From NCBI GenBank assembly GCA_020354555.1, contig CP070648.1, positions 236,604 through 274,247 of the forward strand: DNA of 37,644 nt, in the 5' to 3' direction. A model generated the notes under the pieces. It searched no databases. It saw only the letters and a program-made list of their open reading frames with translations, and was not told the origin of the DNA. The stretch is from Armatimonadota bacterium (lineage in GTDB: Bacteria; Armatimonadota; Hebobacteria; GCA-020354555; CP070648). A program made the position numbers and the translations under genes. This document shows positions 17,437 through 28,181 of the stretch, piece after piece (the first letter of the stretch is position 1; each line of letters begins with the position of its first letter).

Positions 17437-20076
17437 TTAGAACTTCAGGCCGAGCTGCGCGCCGAAGGTTCGCGCGTGGTAGCTGTAACGGGTGTCGCTG
17501 GACTCGCTCGAGATCTGCCGCCAGTCGAGAACGAAGTTGAGCTCGCGAGTCAGGCCGATCTGCCAGCCGAGGGCGAGCGCACGGCGACGGTTGCCGCCGG
17601 GATACCCCGAGTTGCTGCTCGCCTCCCACTCGGCGAACGCTTCCTGCCGCTTGGCGACCGGGTAGCTGATGCGCGCCCGCACGCTGGAGTTCGCCGTGCC
17701 GTGGGCGGCAGAGCCCCCGTATCCGTAGGGTGAGCCGCCGGTTCCCGTTGGGGCGGCGGGCGTCCCGTACGGGATGCCGAAGCTGCCGCTCGTGGTGCCG
17801 GTCATGTGGCTGTAGTTGAGATCGAGCTTGACGCCGGGGCCGAGGGGCCCGATGGCGGCGCCGAGCGACATGATATCATTCGCCGACCGCCCGTCCGCGG
17901 CGAGGTACGTCAGATCTTGCCGGGTGTACTGGCCGATGAAGGAGAGGGCGCCTGCCGCTTGCCACCAGAACCCGGCGGTCCATGCATCGGTGTCGCTGTT
18001 GGTGCTGTATCCGCCCTGGCTCATTTGCGAGTCGTATGCGAGGTTGAGCGCTAGATTGCGCGCCGCATTGTGGCGGAGATTGAAGCTGTGGCCGCTCGTC
18101 GTGTATCCCGGGACGGTGCGCCCGTCGGCGCTGACCGTTTCGCCGGAGGAGCTGCTGCGATAGCCCAGGGTGATCGCGGTAGCGGAGGTCGGCACGTACT
18201 CGACGGCGACGCGCGAGCTGTCCGCCCGCGTCTCGCCGCCGCCGGCAAGCGACATGCCGCTCCTCGCCAGATCGCACACCACGCTGAGGCGGGTGCCCGG
18301 GCGGTACCACATGCTGAGTGCGGTGCCCTCGCCGCGGCCCGCATAGGCGGTGCCAAAGGCCTGGGGCTCGAGAGGCTGCGGCCCGTAGATCGGTGGCGTG
18401 TAGGGGGACAGCGGCGCCTCTCCCTGTCGAGCGTGAGCGTTGCTGCGGTATGTCGCCTGGACGCCGTAGGTCCGGCGCTCGTATCCGAGAGTGAGGAGCT
18501 GGCTGTCGGTGCGCTCGGCGAGGGATGCGGCGCCCTCGCCTGCGACGGCCGACCAGGAGCCGACATACGAGAGCGTCGGCCAGCCGGCGCGGTTGAAATC
18601 CAGCGTCAACTCACGGCTGCGGTCGTGCACCAGAAGACCCGATGCATCGCCGTACTGGAAGTAGGGTCTGCGGTAGTTGCGAACGGCGCCGGTGATGCGC
18701 AGCCCGGTGGCGGGTTGAAAGCCGACGGTGCAGTCGTACCCGCCGCGCATCTCCCTGCGGCCGGCGGATTCGAACGGCGCGAAAGCGGCGTCGGCGCGGT
18801 GGAGATTGGCCGCGAGGGATAGACGATCCCATTCGCCGCGCGCGCCGATCGCCAGGGCGCTGCCGGAGGAACCTCCCGCGCCGACCCCGCCCACGCTGTG
18901 TGCGAGTTCCGCGTCCAGGTTCAGATGGGCTCCCGCGGCATAGTGAGCGTCGAGGCCGACGAGCGAGCGCTGCGGACTGGACGACTGTGCCGCCCCTTCC
19001 ACTCGATAGGTCACGATGACCGACACGCCTGCCGGCACGGGTTGAAGGAACATGATGGAGCCGATCGCGTAGTCCACTTGGTAATCGCGGCCTTGGACCT
19101 GCAGGATACCGTCGAGGCGGACGCGCTCACTGCCCGGCTCGATGGGGCGAAAGGTCAGGGTGAAGGGCCCCGCCGTATTGTTGCCGAGCCAGCGGTCTTC
19201 TTTTGCCGTCGTCGTCGGCGCGGCCGCTGCGCGCCGCTCGAGGGTGAGGTAGGTGGCGCCGACGCGGAGGCCGGAGGAGATGGGGTATGCGCCGCGCAGA
19301 CCGACGAGCGTCCCCGACATTCCTCCAGGCGCATCGTACTCGTAGCTGACGGCGATGCGCGAGGCCGGCGAAATGATCAACGTCGGCGCGAATTGGATGA
19401 GTCCGATCTGGTAGTCAATGCTGTAGTCGGCCCCGCGCTGCATGCGGCGCCCGTCCACTTCGACGACTTCGGAGGCGTCAACCAAAGGGCTGGCGGCGAG
19501 GTAGTACGGCCCGGCCGAGTTGCGGCCATAGAGGACATCGGTGCGCACCGCCGGTTCGCACTCCGACGCGATCATCGTCAGCGCGCCGCGGGCGAGCCTG
19601 CTATCCACCTGGATGCCGCGCAGGCTGCGGCGGAAGCCCGCCAAGCCGCCGTCGAAGAGAACCGCGAGATCGCCCGCTTTCACCACGGCGTCGCTGCCGT
19701 CAAAGGTGAAGGTGAGGCGCTGCCGCCCGGGAGTATAGGACCCGCGGGCGATGACCGCGTCCACGCGCAGATCGGGCAGCAGGTCGCCGCGCACGACGAG
19801 GTCGGTGCGATGCTCAAAGCGGCGGGACAGCGAGTAGTTGTCCCAGTGAAAGCTGCTCCGGCTGAGTTCGCTGCCGGAGACCTCCTGGGAGCGAAAGGTG
19901 ACGGTCTCCTGGCCGACCACCGAGAGGGAAGTCGGGCCGAGCCTGAGCTCCGCGGCTCCCGCCGGTGAAGAGGCCGCCAACGCCAACATCACGCCAGCCA
20001 GTATGAGCAGCGCGGCCCGGATCGCGCCGGCGGCGCTGCGTGGCCTGTTATGGGCCCGCGTACGTGACAACAGCAT
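17437..20076 (-). CDS. Large outer-membrane beta-barrel protein with tandem SprA-like modules
   Basis: About 879 residues. A signal peptide (hydrophobic core about 20-40, ending near SPAGAA) precedes a beta-rich protein of alternating strands that ends in LGLKF; the terminal Phe is the classic BAM-recognised end of outer-membrane barrels. Two related modules at about 189-248 and 303-360 share the pattern AGPY/F, then S-E-x-V-x-x-DG, RG-x-DY-x-x-DY-x-x-G-x-I-x-F, reminiscent of repeats in SprA-type translocons. Family identity is uncertain. A GTG lies one codon before the ATG at 20076. It is the last gene of the riboswitch-led operon. Its Gly/Ser/Tyr-rich stretch near residue 775 is a likely surface loop. 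Confidence 0.7.
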   Translation of the reverse strand: MLLSRTRAHNRPRSAAGAIRAALLILAGVMLALAASSPAGAAELRLGPTSLSVVGQETVTFRSQEVSGSELSRSSFHWDNYSLSRRFEHRTDLVVRGDLLPDLRVDAVIARGSYTPGRQRLTFTFDGSDAVVKAGDLAVLFDGGLAGFRRSLRGIQVDSRLARGALTMIASECEPAVRTDVLYGRNSAGPYYLAASPLVDASEVVEVDGRRMQRGADYSIDYQIGLIQFAPTLIISPASRIAVSYEYDAPGGMSGTLVGLRGAYPISSGLRVGATYLTLERRAAAAPTTTAKEDRWLGNNTAGPFTLTFRPIEPGSERVRLDGILQVQGRDYQVDYAIGSIMFLQPVPAGVSVIVTYRVEGAAQSSSPQRSLVGLDAHYAAGAHLNLDAELAHSVGGVGAGGSSGSALAIGARGEWDRLSLAANLHRADAAFAPFESAGRREMRGGYDCTVGFQPATGLRITGAVRNYRRPYFQYGDASGLLVHDRSRELTLDFNRAGWPTLSYVGSWSAVAGEGAASLAERTDSQLLTLGYERRTYGVQATYRSNAHARQGEAPLSPYTPPIYGPQPLEPQAFGTAYAGRGEGTALSMWYRPGTRLSVVCDLARSGMSLAGGGETRADSSRVAVEYVPTSATAITLGYRSSSSGETVSADGRTVPGYTTSGHSFNLRHNAARNLALNLAYDSQMSQGGYSTNSDTDAWTAGFWWQAAGALSFIGQYTRQDLTYLAADGRSANDIMSLGAAIGPLGPGVKLDLNYSHMTGTTSGSFGIPYGTPAAPTGTGGSPYGYGGSAAHGTANSSVRARISYPVAKRQEAFAEWEASSNSGYPGGNRRRALALGWQIGLTRELNFVLDWRQISSESSDTRYSYHARTFGAQLGLKF

Positions 20077-20079
20077 CAC

Positions 20080-20484
20080 CTATTGCGGCGGCGGCGGGGG
20101 ACTGTCCACGAGCAAGATATCCGGAATGGTGGTGATGCCTGCTGTGACGGTGACGGTATCGTTGTATTCGGCGTAGCCGGTTGCTTGCACGGTTATGGCC
20201 TGAGCGCCGACGGGCAGTCCGAGGAGGCGGAAGCGGCCATCCACGTCGGTCTCAGTGCTGGCAGCGCCAACGGTAACGAACGCGCCGATCACGCCGCGAC
20301 TCGCCGCGGCGTCCCGCACGGTACCCTCAATGCCCGTGGCCGAGGCGGGCGCAGCGCCGCCGCCGCCCCCGCAGCCCGCGGCGCCGAAGAAGAGGCCCAC
20401 GGCACACGCCGTGAGCGCGAGGGCGCACAGCCTGTTGCCGATGCCGGCGCGGCCCGGGCCTGTCCTATGACGTCTGAGATCCAT
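20080..20484 (-). CDS. Small lipoprotein with a carboxypeptidase-regulatory-like domain
   Basis: 134 residues. The signal peptide ends in FFGAAGC, a lipobox-like site, followed by a Gly-rich linker. The remainder is one Ig-like CarboxypepD_reg domain: TGIEGTVRDAAASRGVIGAF, then TDVDGRFRLLGLPVGAQAIT and TVQATGYAEYNDTVTV. It ends in a Pro-rich tail (DSPPPPPQ) with TAG. Such domains are binding or spacer modules in exported proteins. It precedes the beta-barrel gene by only 3 bases and is probably coupled to it. The lipid anchor is predicted, not proved. Confidence 0.75.
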   Translation of the reverse strand: MDLRRHRTGPGRAGIGNRLCALALTACAVGLFFGAAGCGGGGGAAPASATGIEGTVRDAAASRGVIGAFVTVGAASTETDVDGRFRLLGLPVGAQAITVQATGYAEYNDTVTVTAGITTIPDILLVDSPPPPPQ

Positions 20485-22338: not shown

Positions 22339-22358
22339 GGAAGCGTGCCATCCCCCCC

Positions 22359-22383
22359 GGGGCCCTGCGAGGCGCAGGGCCCC
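22359..22383 (-). terminator. Hairpin between the DUF11 gene and the FlgD-Ig gene
   Basis: GGGGCCCTGC (22359-22368), a 5-nt loop and GCAGGGCCCC (22374-22383) give a perfect 10-bp GC stem. No U-run follows on the minus strand, so it may stabilise the upstream message or attenuate rather than stop transcription. Confidence 0.4.
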
Positions 22384-22413
22384 AGGGATGTCGCCAGGTT
22401 GTCTCGTACGGCG

Positions 22414-23319
22414 CTACTTGACTGTCGCGTCGAAGGTGATAGTGCCCGTGGCACCCGCAGCGACGGTACCGACGTTGACGGTGATGACACCGGAACTGAC
22501 GGTCACGTTGTCGCCGTCCGCAGCGTCGGTCTTGGGCGATCCGTTGACCGTGACGCTGTTGGCGACGTAGGTGACGGTCGCCGGGACCGTGTCGCGGACC
22601 ACCACGTTGATGGCCGAGGCATCGCCGGTGTTGCTGTAAGTGATGGTGTAGCGGATGGTCTCGTCAGGCGCGGCTTCCGCCTTATCCACGCTCTTGGTCA
22701 GACCCATGACGGCGGCTTTGACCGTGGTGGAGAAGACCGCGCTCGCCTTCTCGGCTGCGTCGAACTGAGAGGTCGCCGTGAATGTGGTCTGATCAACGGC
22801 TCCGGTCGCGGCGCCGCTGGGTACGGTCACCGCGATGAAGCACTTGAACGTCGCGTCGGCCGCGATACTGCCCGTGGTCGAGGCGACGTTCGTTTCGCCG
22901 GACTGATGGACGCCGTCATTGGCGGTGCCACCGCCCGCGCCGTCGTCCTTGTAGATGACAACGGTCCATGCGGGGTCGCTCGCGGAAGAGGCGGCCAGTG
23001 CCAGCGTGTCGGCTGCGTTGCCATTGTTGGTCACGGTGACGGCGTAGTACACGACCTCGCCGGTCTGCGCGTCGTCCGCGCCGGACGAGGGCGCCACCTG
23101 CACCGCTGCGATTTGGCTGACCGTGACCGCGGCCTGGTTGGATGCGACCGTGGGCTGCTGGGCTCCGCCGGAGTCTTCGTAGTCGAGGGATGCCGTGTTG
23201 TTGATCACGGTGCCCGCGGCGGTGCCTTGGGCGTAGGCGGGGACTGCGACCAACCCTACGGCGACGATTGTGCAAGCCGCGAGCACGTTGCCTCGACTCG
23301 CCACTGAGAACCAACGCAT
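22414..23319 (-). CDS. Exported DUF11-domain surface protein
   Basis: 301 residues. A signal peptide (about 10-30, ending VPAYAQG) is followed by two Ig-like beta domains. The second is a DUF11 domain: LTKSVDKAEAAPDETIRYTI, then TYSNTGDASAINVVVRDTVP and ending AAGATGTITFDATVK. The first contains VSQIAAVQVAPSSGADDAQT and VYYAVTVTNNGNAADTLALA. DUF11 domains are stalk or adhesin-like modules of surface proteins. I chose the ATG at 23319 with AGGAGG 8 bases upstream; a GTG three codons earlier falls inside the ribosome site. It is the first gene after the cyclic-di-GMP riboswitch, so c-di-GMP probably controls it directly. Confidence 0.85.
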   Translation of the reverse strand: MRWFSVASRGNVLAACTIVAVGLVAVPAYAQGTAAGTVINNTASLDYEDSGGAQQPTVASNQAAVTVSQIAAVQVAPSSGADDAQTGEVVYYAVTVTNNGNAADTLALAASSASDPAWTVVIYKDDGAGGGTANDGVHQSGETNVASTTGSIAADATFKCFIAVTVPSGAATGAVDQTTFTATSQFDAAEKASAVFSTTVKAAVMGLTKSVDKAEAAPDETIRYTITYSNTGDASAINVVVRDTVPATVTYVANSVTVNGSPKTDAADGDNVTVSSGVITVNVGTVAAGATGTITFDATVK

Positions 23320-23467
23320 TTCGTTCACCTCCTGGAATGAGGCCCCCGGTGAACAACTGCCGCCGCGCGCGCGTTCCCGTGAGCGGGGATTGCGCTGCGC
23401 GCCACCGTGCTGGCGGTGAACGAAGTGCTGCGCACGATTGCTGCTTGCGGTATGCTAAATGCAAACC

Positions 23468-23492
23468 GCCCCTGGCAGCGGCTGCCAGGGGC
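23468..23492 (-). terminator. Hairpin between the riboswitch and the DUF11 gene
   Basis: GCCCCTGGCAGC (23468-23479) and GCTGCCAGGGGC (23481-23492) flank a single base. Transcribed on the minus strand the stem is followed by GGTTTGCATTTAG. This resembles an intrinsic terminator and may be the riboswitch expression platform, though the U-run is weak and it lies about 50 nt past the aptamer. Confidence 0.5.
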
Positions 23493-23540
23493 AAGGTTAG
23501 CGAACTGCGATGAAGTGCGAACTCGCCAATCTGTGCTGTT

Positions 23541-23607
23541 TGGCAACCCGGCTGACTACGTGAGTCCCGTGGCTTTGCGTCCCCTTCTCGCGAAAGGTTT
23601 GCCTTTA
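23541..23607 (-). promoter_or_regulatory. Cyclic-di-GMP-I (GEMM-I) riboswitch aptamer
   Basis: The minus-strand RNA contains AAGGCAAACC, a hairpin CCTTTC-GCGA-GAAGGGG with a GNRA tetraloop, the core GGGACGCAAAGCC, a second hairpin GACT-CACGT-AGTC, and AGCCGGGTTGCC closing the aptamer by pairing GGCAA with TTGCC. These match the conserved blocks of GEMM-I in order and spacing. The class senses c-di-GMP. It lies about 220 nt upstream of the DUF11 gene, with a terminator-like hairpin between. I recognised it by motif only; a covariance search would settle it. Confidence 0.93.
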
Positions 23608-23629
23608 TCAACCAGCCTGAGTGGGATCA

Positions 23630-23635
23630 GTTATA
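23630..23635 (-). promoter_or_regulatory. Probable -10 box of the riboswitch operon
   Basis: Minus-strand TATAAC, preceded 18 bases upstream by TTACGG as a weak -35. The predicted start near 23623 falls just before the aptamer begins, which supports it. Confidence 0.45.
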
Positions 23636-23850
23636 CGCTATCCGGGGGAACCTCCGTAACGGCCATTTCCGGCTGTCGCGCGCAACTCTACCGATGCTGC
23701 GCACAACTCTATATTCCACATTGCACGGGGATTGTGACGAGGAACTCGGGGGGCGGTCGGAAGCCGGAATCCAGCCCGCGCAGGTGAGGACTGCAGCCGA
23801 TGCGCAGGCGGGAAACCGGGTGGGGCGCGGGCGACAGCTTGCCAAACTAC

Positions 23851-23911: not shown

Positions 23912-24535
23912 CTACTTCTTGCGGCGCCGGATACCGGCGAGGCCGAGACCGCCCAAGCCGAGCAGAATGATCGAAGCAGGCTCCGGGATGTACGGATCCC
24001 CTACGCGCGCCCAGAAGGTCTGCCCTCCCGTATCGGAATTGGTGACGATGTGGACGAGATAGACGAAGTCCTCGCCAGCGGGCGTGTCACCGGTCCAGTG
24101 GGCCCAGAAGCTGGTGTTGTCACTCTCACCCGGGTGAACGTAGCTCGCGGGATCTGAGCCCCGCCAGCCCACAGCGCCCCAGCCGGAGGGATGGGTCTCC
24201 CAGCCGCCGTTGATGTCCCAGCCGCTGCGGTTGAGAGGATAGCCACCGAATCCGGCGTAATAGTCCGGCTGCAGCGGGTCGGTGAGCTGGTACGCGACGA
24301 GGGTCTTCACGCCGCCGTAGGTGGGATCAATGGCGCCCCACGTCGGATCGGTTGCGCCCGAGTCCACGCTCAACTGAAAAGTCCAGGTATTGCTGCCCGA
24401 GTTGAACACGGGAACGACGTCAACGTAGTCCACCGTGTACGTCTGCGCATACCAGCTGGGCCACGGATCGGCCCCCGCTCCGGTCACGGACACGGCAAGG
24501 ACGGCCGCCAGCGCGATGGTCATCCAGATTCTCAT
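23912..24535 (-). CDS. PEP-CTERM sorting-domain protein
   Basis: 207 residues. Signal peptide at about 1-22 (IWMTIALAAVLAVSVTGAG). The C-terminus is a canonical PEP-CTERM tail of 24 residues: PEPAS, a hydrophobic span IILLGLGGLGLAGI, then RRRKK. Exosortases are thought to cleave after this motif and release or anchor the protein at the envelope or exopolysaccharide. The body is a Trp/Tyr/Gly-rich beta protein without a recognised domain. I chose the ATG at 24535 with GGAGG 7 bases upstream. An exosortase gene lies 2.5 kb upstream on the same strand. Confidence 0.92.
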   Translation of the reverse strand: MRIWMTIALAAVLAVSVTGAGADPWPSWYAQTYTVDYVDVVPVFNSGSNTWTFQLSVDSGATDPTWGAIDPTYGGVKTLVAYQLTDPLQPDYYAGFGGYPLNRSGWDINGGWETHPSGWGAVGWRGSDPASYVHPGESDNTSFWAHWTGDTPAGEDFVYLVHIVTNSDTGGQTFWARVGDPYIPEPASIILLGLGGLGLAGIRRRKK

Positions 24536-24745
24536 ACTCAAGCCTCCACGGAAGGGCGATACGATCGCCGCAAGATCAATAGAGCCTGTTTTCTTATACT
24601 AGCAAGGACCGTGCCAATTCGGCGCTCATCGCGTCCCCACAGGCACTTTTTTCGTGAAAAAATCGACCATGCGCCAGATTGGCGGGTGAGAAAGCCCTCG
24701 GCGAGGCGCCCCAGTAGCGCTTCGCCCGCCAGTTACACCGTCCGC

Positions 24746-26401
24746 TCACGGACCACCGCTGGTCGCGTCCGCCCCGCTGCGCAGCATGATGAGCTCGCCG
24801 TCGCGAGCCACAGTCACCTCAAAACCGGGCGGCGCAGCGCCCTGGAGGTAGATGCGCTGCCACATGACCGCTTCCTCGGACGCAGGGTACGTCTGCAGCA
24901 AGGTCGAGAAGTAGATGGCGCGGACGTCCACTGCCTCATCCACCGCCTCGAAATCCTCCGCCCCGAGCGGGAGCCAGACGGCGGGCCGGTGCGCATACCA
25001 CGCGACCGCCCAGGGAGCGTCGGTGACGACGACCGCATTCCTGGGCAGCGCTTCCTCGAGATAGCTCAGATTACGCTTGTCGGGGCCAAATTTCGGTTCG
25101 GGCGCGGCCCACGAGACCGCCGCCGGGTACGCAGCGACGCCGACGAAGAACAGCACCGCCACCGCTTGCCAGCCACCGGGCCGTATCCACTCGCGGACGA
25201 GGACCATGAAGTAGCCCGCGCAAAGCACGAGCAGGAGTGGCACGATGACAAAGAACAGCTCGGGGGTCGGATTGTGCACGGCGCCGATGAGTATCAGGAA
25301 CAGAACCAGCGCAAGCACCGCGTTGCGCGCCAGGTTCTGCCGCGGCTGGTTCAGCGTCCGCATCGCCGAGATGACGACGAAGCCGACGACGTAGAGGCCC
25401 ACCAAGGGCGACATAGCGCGATAGGCCGAGGCGAGCCCGAGCACGATCTTTTTCAGCAGCCCGCCCAAGTTGCCGACGATGAGCGGCACGAGCCTGAGGG
25501 CCGACGCGTCGGCGGCCCGGAACAGGGTGTGCCCGGGGTGCGCGCCGGTGAACATGACGATGAGGTACCGTTCGAGGGTGAACAAGGGGTCTCGCGCGAC
25601 CAGATAATTGCGCACCCACCACGGCGTCATGACCACGATCAAGCCAGCAGCGAACCACGCTGCGTGACGCAGTCGCCGTTCCTTCTGCGCGTAGGCGCCC
25701 ACGGCGATCGCCGGGAGCACCAGCGCAAACGTCATGTACTCCGTGAGCCAGCACAGAGCGAGGACGGCACCCGCGGCAGCGCTCAGTCTCAACGAGCCCG
25801 AGTTGACGTAGATGAGGTAGACCATCAGCGTGAGCAAGAACGCCCACAGCGTCACGTGCAGACCGGATACCGCATAGGCCAATGCTTGCACGTTGAGCGC
25901 GAAAAGCGCCGCGGCGAGGGCGCCGGTCGCGCGATCGAATATCCTCGATGCGAGCACATAGACCATTATCAAGGTCGCCAGGAAGAAGACCGCAGATACG
26001 CCGGCGACAACGGCGTCACTGTGCGGGAGCGCGCCGAATGCCACCCCGAGGGTCAGGGGGTAGAGCGGCGCGTTGTAGATCTCGGGCGCGGGCACGCGCG
26101 GGAAGAGCGCGACCTCGACCGGCCGCAGGAGCGAGGTCACGAACCCCTGTCCCTCCGCCAGATGCCTGCCGAGCTGAGCGAGGTCCATCGCCTCGCTGCG
26201 GTACAGGCCCTTGAACGCGCGGGTGAACTGCAAAGCGAGGGCGATCGCGCCCGGGCCGATCCACGAGACATGCAGCAGCAGGGCGCGGCTCAATCGTTCA
26301 ACGCGATCCGGACGGCGACGAACGATCTCGTCGCCGGCAGCTTGGTCGCCGCTCGGTGCGCCCTCGGCTGTTCGCTGTGCTGATGGTTGCTCGCTCGTCA
26401 C
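24746..26401 (-). CDS. GT-C (ArnT/PMT-type) membrane glycosyltransferase
   Basis: 551 residues with about 11 membrane spans, mainly between residues 45 and 440. Near the N-terminus is RSEAMDLAQLGRHLAEGQGF, the first extracytoplasmic loop with acidic residues, as in PMT-2/ArnT-type transferases that use lipid-linked sugars. The C-terminal 110 residues form a soluble domain (LSYLEEALPRNAVVVTDAPW and PAVWLPLGAEDFEAVDEAVD). The start is GTG with AAAGGTG close upstream. It lies 39 bp after the EpsI-type gene, placing it in the exosortase locus, where it probably glycosylates exported proteins or polymers. Confidence 0.8.
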   Translation of the reverse strand: MTSEQPSAQRTAEGAPSGDQAAGDEIVRRRPDRVERLSRALLLHVSWIGPGAIALALQFTRAFKGLYRSEAMDLAQLGRHLAEGQGFVTSLLRPVEVALFPRVPAPEIYNAPLYPLTLGVAFGALPHSDAVVAGVSAVFFLATLIMVYVLASRIFDRATGALAAALFALNVQALAYAVSGLHVTLWAFLLTLMVYLIYVNSGSLRLSAAAGAVLALCWLTEYMTFALVLPAIAVGAYAQKERRLRHAAWFAAGLIVVMTPWWVRNYLVARDPLFTLERYLIVMFTGAHPGHTLFRAADASALRLVPLIVGNLGGLLKKIVLGLASAYRAMSPLVGLYVVGFVVISAMRTLNQPRQNLARNAVLALVLFLILIGAVHNPTPELFFVIVPLLLVLCAGYFMVLVREWIRPGGWQAVAVLFFVGVAAYPAAVSWAAPEPKFGPDKRNLSYLEEALPRNAVVVTDAPWAVAWYAHRPAVWLPLGAEDFEAVDEAVDVRAIYFSTLLQTYPASEEAVMWQRIYLQGAAPPGFEVTVARDGELIMLRSGADATSGGP

Positions 26402-26440
26402 ACTGGCACCTTTCGATGAAACGGTCCTTATCGAGCCGGA

Positions 26441-27076
26441 TCAGGCCCCCGTGACCTCGACGACATGCGGGTGCAGAACGCCCAGCAGGCGCATGCCGCG
26501 CCTCGCTGCGGCGTCTGTGTCCGACGCCACGGGAACGGTCAGCCTGACCAGCGCACCGACCGGTCGCTCGTGCCGCAGGCGATCCCATGCCAGATATGCC
26601 TGGTGCATGACCCAACTCGTCGTGGCGCGATCGCGCTCGACGTAGTAGTAGAGCACGACGGCGTGGTCCCCCTCGCGGGCGAGGATGAATCGGTTCACCG
26701 GTATCGCGGCGCCCGTCGTGGCGGCCTGGAACGTCAGCTGCGACTTGGAGACGATGTTCCATCCGCCGCCGAGCAGGCAGAAGCCTGGTGAATGGAACGT
26801 CGCTTTGCGGTGGCCGAGGATGACGCCGAAGTGCACCGGCAACCCATCGGCGTTCACGTACTCGCGATTGAGGTAGGCATCGGGCTTCAGCATGTCCATC
26901 GTCAAGTCATCGTACGGGCCCAGATCGCGGCCCTGCCAATCGCCGACGCGCAAAGGGATTCTCTCCACCGGCAGCTCGGCGCTCGCACCGGTCATCGGCC
27001 GGGTCGCCCAGGCGGCGACCTGCCCTGCGAGCAGCAGGACGAGCATCGCGATGCAGCGCTTATCCACCGCTCGCAT
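26441..27076 (-). CDS. EpsI/exosortase-associated (DUF3485) protein
   Basis: 211 residues. One N-terminal membrane span (about 8-25, CIAMLVLLLAGQVAAWA) is followed by the EpsI-type domain: PLRVGDWQGRDLGPYDDLTM, then FHSPGFCLLGGGWNIVSKSQ with the family HxPxxCLxGxGW motif, and DHAVVLYYYVERDRATTSWV. EpsI-type proteins accompany exosortases and extracellular polysaccharide genes; the exact role is unsettled. The ATG at 27076 has GAGGAG about 6 bases upstream and overlaps the exosortase gene by 17 bases, so it is translationally coupled to it. Confidence 0.88.
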   Translation of the reverse strand: MRAVDKRCIAMLVLLLAGQVAAWATRPMTGASAELPVERIPLRVGDWQGRDLGPYDDLTMDMLKPDAYLNREYVNADGLPVHFGVILGHRKATFHSPGFCLLGGGWNIVSKSQLTFQAATTGAAIPVNRFILAREGDHAVVLYYYVERDRATTSWVMHQAYLAWDRLRHERPVGALVRLTVPVASDTDAAARRGMRLLGVLHPHVVEVTGA

Positions 27077-27944
27077 CGGGGGCTCCTCTATCGCTGCCAC
27101 CGGCAATCCCGCGCAGTCCGAGCGCGCGGGCGACGAGGATCATGCCGGCCAGAGCGAACACGAATACGAGCATACCGGAAGCGCCGTGGAAGAACCCTTC
27201 CGCCGCACGGGCGCCGGCCAAGGTCGCGATCACGAGAATGAGCGTGACGCGGGCGACATTGGCCGCGAGCGCCACCGGCACGCCGAGGGCGAACAGGACG
27301 ACACGCCGCCACATCGGCCCGCGCGCGACGTACGCGATGAGCGCGGCCAGGGCCATCAGGGCCACCAGGGCCTTCATGCCGCTGCATGGCACCGCCACGG
27401 TGAACGAGTAATTGGCGAGATGGATGTCCACTCCGCTGCGCGAAACGGGAATGCCAAGGAGTCCCGTAATCATCGTGGCGTATTTCGCCGACAGAAGCTG
27501 CATCGGGAAGCTGATGAACTCGACCAGCAGGTCCGGCCACGGCACCATGAAGAACAGGAAGGCGTAGGGGAAACCTACCTCGCGCGCGACCCCCCAACCG
27601 CCGAAGTAGAGCATCTGCGCGCCGATCATCAGGACGAGCGACAGCGGCGCCAGGAAGTTAACCTCCATCCACCGGCCGGCGAGGTACATGAGCAAGGCCG
27701 CGGCCGCGCACGCCATGCCGGCTGCGGCGGCGCCGCCGCGGTAAGCTGCGACGATTCGCTCCCAGCGCGTCCACACCAGATACGCCGCGATCGGCGCGAC
27801 GAGGAAGCCGTGGGAGGCATGGTCGTCCGTCGCCCACGCGCGAACCATCTGGCTCAGGGCAGGCGCGTAGAGCCACGCGCCTGCAGCGACCACTGCGACC
27901 GCCAATATGGGGACCGGCCTCGGACGAGCGACTGCTACAGCCAT
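27060..27944 (-). CDS. Exosortase (PEP-CTERM cysteine protease/transpeptidase)
   Basis: About 294 residues with eight predicted membrane spans. The exosortase triad is present: Cys187 (AVPCSGMKALVAL), Arg232 (AANVARVTLILV) and His253 (FFHGASGML). DHASHGFLV near residue 41 is the conserved loop after the first span. The enzyme processes PEP-CTERM proteins at the inner membrane. I chose the ATG at 27944; the frame is open to 28163 but the added residues are basic and unlike the family. It overlaps epsI and shares the locus with its likely substrate at 23912-24535. Confidence 0.92.
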   Translation of the reverse strand: MAVAVARPRPVPILAVAVVAAGAWLYAPALSQMVRAWATDDHASHGFLVAPIAAYLVWTRWERIVAAYRGGAAAAGMACAAAALLMYLAGRWMEVNFLAPLSLVLMIGAQMLYFGGWGVAREVGFPYAFLFFMVPWPDLLVEFISFPMQLLSAKYATMITGLLGIPVSRSGVDIHLANYSFTVAVPCSGMKALVALMALAALIAYVARGPMWRRVVLFALGVPVALAANVARVTLILVIATLAGARAAEGFFHGASGMLVFVFALAGMILVARALGLRGIAGGSDRGAPDASGG

Positions 27945-28181
27945 AGAAACGCCTGTTTGCACCAACCACGCGCGTTCGACGGACGCCCTTCGCGCCCAGC
28001 GCGAAACGGGGGCGTCTATCGGCACCTGCGCAGGAACGTGCGTTGAGGATACGGAGCAAGGAACGTGCCAGCGCGTCGCGCGTTCGAATAGCGCGTCCGG
28101 CGCGGACCGCCGCAAGGGCAGGTTCTGCACCAGACGGCGAGTGCCACCCCACCAGCGATGCACGCGAACGCCATGCCGCGG

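Follow-up and report, generated by a model that had tools for sequence, protein, structure and literature searches.

The type example of the class I c-di-GMP riboswitches (RF01051) is Vc2 of Vibrio cholerae. The cGAMP-type GEMM-Ib riboswitches carry an A at position 20, and the pilM riboswitch of Geobacter metallireducens likewise has an adenine at the G20 position. The ligand contacts of the c-di-GMP aptamer are G20, A47 and C92 (PMC4744006), of which A47 stacks between the two guanines of c-di-GMP (PMC4744006, PMC9049102, PMC3764141). The pilM riboswitch of G. metallireducens responds to cGAMP with an ON output, and Cd1, a class I riboswitch of Clostridioides difficile, is a proven c-di-GMP OFF switch (PMC9262584). 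The C. difficile class I switches are OFF switches, including one located before a putative adhesin (PMC6200980). Literature searches on c-di-GMP riboswitch control in Armatimonadota found none, and the locus described here, within a 37.6 kb stretch of an Armatimonadota genome (the window), would extend such control to this poorly studied phylum. The initial annotation had proposed that a c-di-GMP class I riboswitch leads a surface-protein operon. This core proposal is borne out by the ligand contacts shared with Vc2, the gene order kept in a second genus, the pilus-linked sister aptamers and the diguanylate cyclase domains of the genome. Our preferred reading, to which we assign a probability of about 0.6, is that a four-gene surface operon carries at its 5' end an ordinary c-di-GMP class I riboswitch, which turns the operon OFF by termination, and that the operon belongs to a pilus regulon.

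The aptamer and its ligand pocket

An Rfam-wide covariance search of the window returned a single match, on the minus strand, to RF03167 (c-di-GMP-I-GGC), with 72 bits (E 2.5e-15) against a gathering score of 59 bits. The match spans the full length of the model (1-80 of 80), and the same match was obtained when the search was repeated on a short stretch. RF01051 scored 68.8 bits at this site (E 4.0e-13; gathering score 35 bits), and none of the 14 control genomes had a match to the aptamer family. The aptamer and its landmarks, the latter read directly from the sequence, are as follows.

23538-23612, minus strand: c-di-GMP class I (GEMM-I) aptamer
23603-23596, minus strand: sequence block GGCAAACC
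23583-23571, minus strand: sequence block GGGACGCAAAGCC
23549-23542, minus strand: sequence block GGGTTGCC
23588-23591, minus strand: GNRA tetraloop GCGA in P2 (positions 32-35)

A GEMM-I aptamer with three sequence blocks and a GNRA tetraloop hairpin had been annotated initially, and all of these elements were found on the minus strand. The assignment to RF01051 held in that its score is well above the cut-off, but the best Rfam model is RF03167. The GCGA loop, present as in the RF01051 class, is predicted to dock on P3. The element is a full-length class I c-di-GMP aptamer, and the switch is well supported but of an ordinary, known kind, a textbook c-di-GMP sensor. We give almost no credence to the idea that it is a decayed, non-functional aptamer, given its full-length, high-scoring match; in G192, a genome of the same family but of a different (sister) genus, 68 of the 75 aptamer bases are the same while the flanks diverge, and nothing was found in favour of decay.

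The best model names a variant subfamily, whose consensus has G at position 47. The pocket positions in Vc2 numbering are as follows.

23603, minus strand: G20 equivalent, ligand contact (unbroken length match to Vc2 numbering)
23576, minus strand: A47 equivalent, the ligand-stacking adenine (RF03167 alignment; model consensus G here)
23543, minus strand: C92 equivalent, ligand contact (direct sequence)

Every ligand-contact nucleotide tested is the same as in Vc2. In the alignment the RF03167 consensus reads GGGACGCGAA and the window aptamer reads GGGACGCAAA; since P2 has the same length as in Vc2, the differing base is position 47. The aptamer also has the G14-C93 pair, A95 and the G21-C46 pair, and those conserved positions of PMC3764141 that could be mapped are present (G14, C22, A23, A25, G32, A35, G42, C44, G45, A48, A49, C93 and A95). 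Among the 32 Armatimonadota aptamers recoverable by pattern match, G20 and A47 occur in 32/32.

We read the name GGC as G20/G47/C92. With A47 beside G20 and C92 in the window and G47 in the RF03167 consensus, the RF03167 label misleads on the pocket: by score the aptamer belongs to the subfamily, and by the base at 23576 it does not. The variant ligand that the label suggests was rejected, given A47. It is very improbable that the aptamer senses another ligand, whether as a true GGC-type variant, as its best label would have it, or as a sensor of 3',3'-cGAMP. Position 23603 is G rather than the A20 of cGAMP-type switches, the G21-C46 pair is of the c-di-GMP type, and the sampled relatives agree. 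Judged by these residues, the pocket is of the ordinary c-di-GMP type. None of the sampled RF03167 matches in Armatimonadota has the model-consensus G47, suggesting that for this subfamily the best-model label may be an unreliable guide to the ligand. The GGC-subfamily matches here carry ordinary c-di-GMP residues, which shows that the pocket implied by the best Rfam model can be the wrong one.

In other Armatimonadota the aptamer lies before exported CarboxypepD_reg and subtilase genes, ParA/ParB-type genes and, in one relative, a GGDEF gene; the aptamer-led GGDEF gene counts in favour of the preferred reading. Two Armatimonadota MAGs found via PilM (Armatimonadetes and Candidatus Hebobacteria) had no aptamer in the stretch examined.

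The leader and the direction of control

The leader runs for ~220 nt from the aptamer to ATG 23319, the first start codon, and contains a terminator-like hairpin, part of which can pair with the aptamer itself.

23712-23721, minus strand: conserved promoter-like element ATGTGGAATA, ~100 nt upstream of the aptamer
23541-23548, minus strand: aptamer 3' strand GGTTGCCA, proposed 5' half of an antiterminator (8 pairs with 23480-23487)
23480-23487, minus strand: TGGCAGCC, proposed antiterminator partner in the terminator 5' arm and loop, from folding of growing transcripts
23466-23494, minus strand: terminator-like hairpin, 13 pairs, tail TTTGCATTTA, the best terminator-like site of the region

A probable promoter had been annotated just upstream of the aptamer. 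No sigma-70-type promoter was found near the window aptamer, and this claim gives way to the conserved ATGTGGAATA, which is likely a promoter element, judging from its distribution. The pattern ATRTGGAATA has 15 exact sites in the 4.88 Mb genome, and the reversed pattern has 0. All four aptamers of the genome have a copy about 30-110 nt upstream, exact save for one with a single change, and the element with small changes precedes the G192 aptamers and several other aptamers in the class. Further ATRTGGAATA sites precede a response regulator and a pilin-like gene, among others, and the motif may represent an alternative class of promoter.

In both genera no shuffle was as stable as the hairpin at 23494-23466 (z -3.8; z -5.9 in G192), whose pairing is kept in G192 via compensatory changes. 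Its tail is T-rich but broken, so that the T tract is weak in the window and in G192 (TTTCATAG). When growing transcripts were folded without ligand, GGTTGCCA:TGGCAGCC pairing came out best for folded-leader lengths of 143-151, with an advantage of 4-7 kcal/mol over the intact aptamer. Once the hairpin 3' arm is made, the hairpin outcompetes this pairing. Equilibrium folding favours the hairpin with or without ligand, and switching must therefore be kinetic. The energy of the antiterminator duplex was not above that of duplexes with shuffled downstream sequence (window leader, p 0.26), and the equivalent pairing in G192 at best roughly matches the intact aptamer. The best antiterminator pairing sites cluster 35-65 nt after several aptamers, and the pilM leaders of both genera have the same aptamer/hairpin arrangement with a longer pairing. 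Masking of the aptamer by GGTTTGC just 3' of the hairpin, seen in the full-length MFE, was rejected since it is not kept in G192.

The hairpin can form while the aptamer is intact, and the alternative to the hairpin uses the aptamer 3' strand. This is the layout of Cd1 and not of Geobacter pilM, and with the OFF-switch topology of Cd1, c-di-GMP probably shuts the operon down; we hold this direction, which the initial annotation did not give, with moderate confidence. On our preferred mechanism, c-di-GMP would bind the G20/A47/C92 pocket, as the conserved contacts suggest, and lock the three-helix aptamer. GGTTGCCA would then be unable to invade the downstream hairpin, which would form and stop RNA polymerase before gene 1, so that high c-di-GMP means operon OFF. 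Without ligand, GGTTGCCA would pair with TGGCAGCC in the hairpin 5' arm as RNA polymerase passes, allowing read-through.

The same riboswitch and ligand could instead act as an ON or translational switch, with the hairpin as a structural or stability element. The weak T tract is in keeping with this, as are the ON output of the GEMM-family pilM switch of Geobacter and the genome's own single-pilin leader (L055 9974-10083, minus strand; L053 2069-2143), where 35 nt separate the aptamer from the start codon and the aptamer 3' strand could mask the ribosome site. In the window, the start codon is far from the aptamer with the hairpin in between, and the aptamer and hairpin are compatible rather than mutually exclusive as in Geobacter pilM (PMC9262584). 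We consider this possibility unlikely, though not negligible, and retain termination with OFF control as the preferred reading.

For the single-pilin leader itself, the proximity of the start codon and the maskable ribosome site suggest translational control, with a sign that may be opposite to that in the pilM leader. In the pilX leader (L054; aptamer C1:3158471-3158559), a textbook terminator, ACCCGCTGTC..GACAGCGGGTTTTTT, separates the aptamer from the pilX-type operon; it has a clean T run and is conserved in G192.

The surface-protein operon and the pilus-linked aptamers

Downstream of the leader, the annotated run of four minus-strand genes for exported proteins was recovered in full (DUF11, FlgD_ig, lipoprotein and barrel).

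22414-23319, minus strand: gene 1, secreted DUF11 protein (PF01345, E 2.4e-14; 73% identical in G192)
22351-22391, minus strand: conserved intercistronic hairpin after gene 1 (z -4.9; G192 z -4.0, L050 6179-6211)
20509-22338, minus strand: gene 2, CarboxypepD_reg and C-terminal FlgD_ig protein (domain search; 60-61% identical in G192)
20080-20484, minus strand: gene 3, small putative lipoprotein of 134 aa with CarboxypepD_reg and lipobox-like FGAAGC
17437-20079, minus strand: gene 4, large predicted outer-membrane beta-barrel of 880 aa with a SprA-like repeat (60% identical in G192)

Gene 1 most likely starts at ATG 23319 and not at the GTG inside the ribosome site; the site, AGGAGG at 23333-23328, lies 8 nt before this ATG, and both are kept in G192. 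The intergenic gaps are short and the four-gene order is conserved in G192, consistent with the genes being co-transcribed. The hairpin after gene 1 (-39.5 kcal/mol) lies ~20 nt after the DUF11 stop, is also present in G192, and may stabilise the mRNA or partly end the transcript there. As a possible mRNA stabiliser, it could lead to an excess of DUF11 protein. Its strength and conservation also leave some room for the switch to govern mainly the DUF11 gene, with most transcripts ending at or processed to this hairpin and genes 2-4 expressed at low levels or from another promoter. We regard this as doubtful, as the hairpin has no T tract, and the short gaps and conserved order speak for control of all four genes, as in the preferred reading.

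AlphaFold models the barrel with moderate confidence as an all-beta meander (mean pLDDT 76, pTM 0.53), and a PDB fold search with this model retrieved generic outer-membrane barrels only (TM 0.46 or less). Identity with the SprA/Sov type 9 translocon was rejected: the match to SprA is 45.5 bits, one shared repeat of ~100 aa, compared to an NCBIfam cut-off of 200 bits and a protein of about 2300 aa. That the predicted barrel might serve as an exporter or anchor is a guess. Ten barrel loci from other families had no c-di-GMP aptamer, suggesting that the barrel family is wider than c-di-GMP control. Directly upstream (window 23912-28163, minus strand) lie genes for an exosortase (PF09721), EpsI (DUF3485), a glycosyltransferase and a PEP-CTERM protein, and the cluster closes with a strong hairpin near 23885-23845. 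G192 keeps the whole succession without interruption: exosortase, EpsI, glycosyltransferase, PEP-CTERM gene, aptamer, DUF11, FlgD-Ig, lipoprotein, barrel.

The genome, a single contig, contains four aptamers, and the other three all lead type IV pilus genes.

Sister aptamer 1: leads DUF4388-PilM-PilN-PilO-T2SSC-secretin, then a PilB-type ATPase
Sister aptamer 2: leads a pilin/pilin/PilX set
Sister aptamer 3: leads a single pilin

This context, with one copy in the 5' leader of a surface operon and sister copies before pilus genes, is that of RF01051-type switches, which lead genes for environment, membrane or motility. All four aptamer-operon pairs are kept in G192, as established by protein match for the barrel, pilM and pilX operons and by leader alignment for the single pilin. 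These observations suggest that the surface operon is part of a small c-di-GMP RNA regulon otherwise made up of type IV pilus operons. The genome encodes 7 GGDEF (diguanylate cyclase) domains; no EAL domains were detected in it, and c-di-GMP may be degraded by enzymes of a different family, for example HD-GYP. An MshEN domain (PF05157), a c-di-GMP-binding fold (PMC11731258), is present in the PilB-type ATPase that follows the riboswitch-led pilM operon (L056 7794-9509), so that c-di-GMP might influence the pilus through RNA as well as through protein. More speculatively, the four class I riboswitches, with their shared promoter type, might switch type IV pili and the DUF11/FlgD-Ig/lipoprotein/SprA-repeat barrel assembly together, the assembly being a new pilus-linked surface or secretion apparatus; we put this forward tentatively. 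The interest of the finding lies in the linked pilus regulon and in the uncharacterised surface operon, which gains a testable signal and a tie to type IV pili.

Comparison with known riboswitches

RF03167 resembles the window aptamer in overall sequence and structure, and differs from it at position 47. Vc2 shares with it the three-helix aptamer, the GNRA loop, the three contact bases, and surface and motility targets. Compared to Vc2 and RF01051, the window aptamer has a short P3, a slightly higher RF03167 score, an Armatimonadota host and a target operon of which no description was found in the literature searched. The pilM riboswitch of G. metallireducens (GEMM-Ib) is alike in having a GEMM-fold aptamer before a pilM operon, an arrangement also seen in one of the sister leaders here, and unlike in that the window has G20, a c-di-GMP pocket and OFF-type topology. 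Cd1 has the same arrangement of an aptamer and a separate, coexisting terminator, and there too an antiterminator competes for the aptamer (PMC9262584). The targets of Cd1 are flagellar genes and measurements of its behaviour exist, whereas switching in the window is predicted and the T tract is weak.
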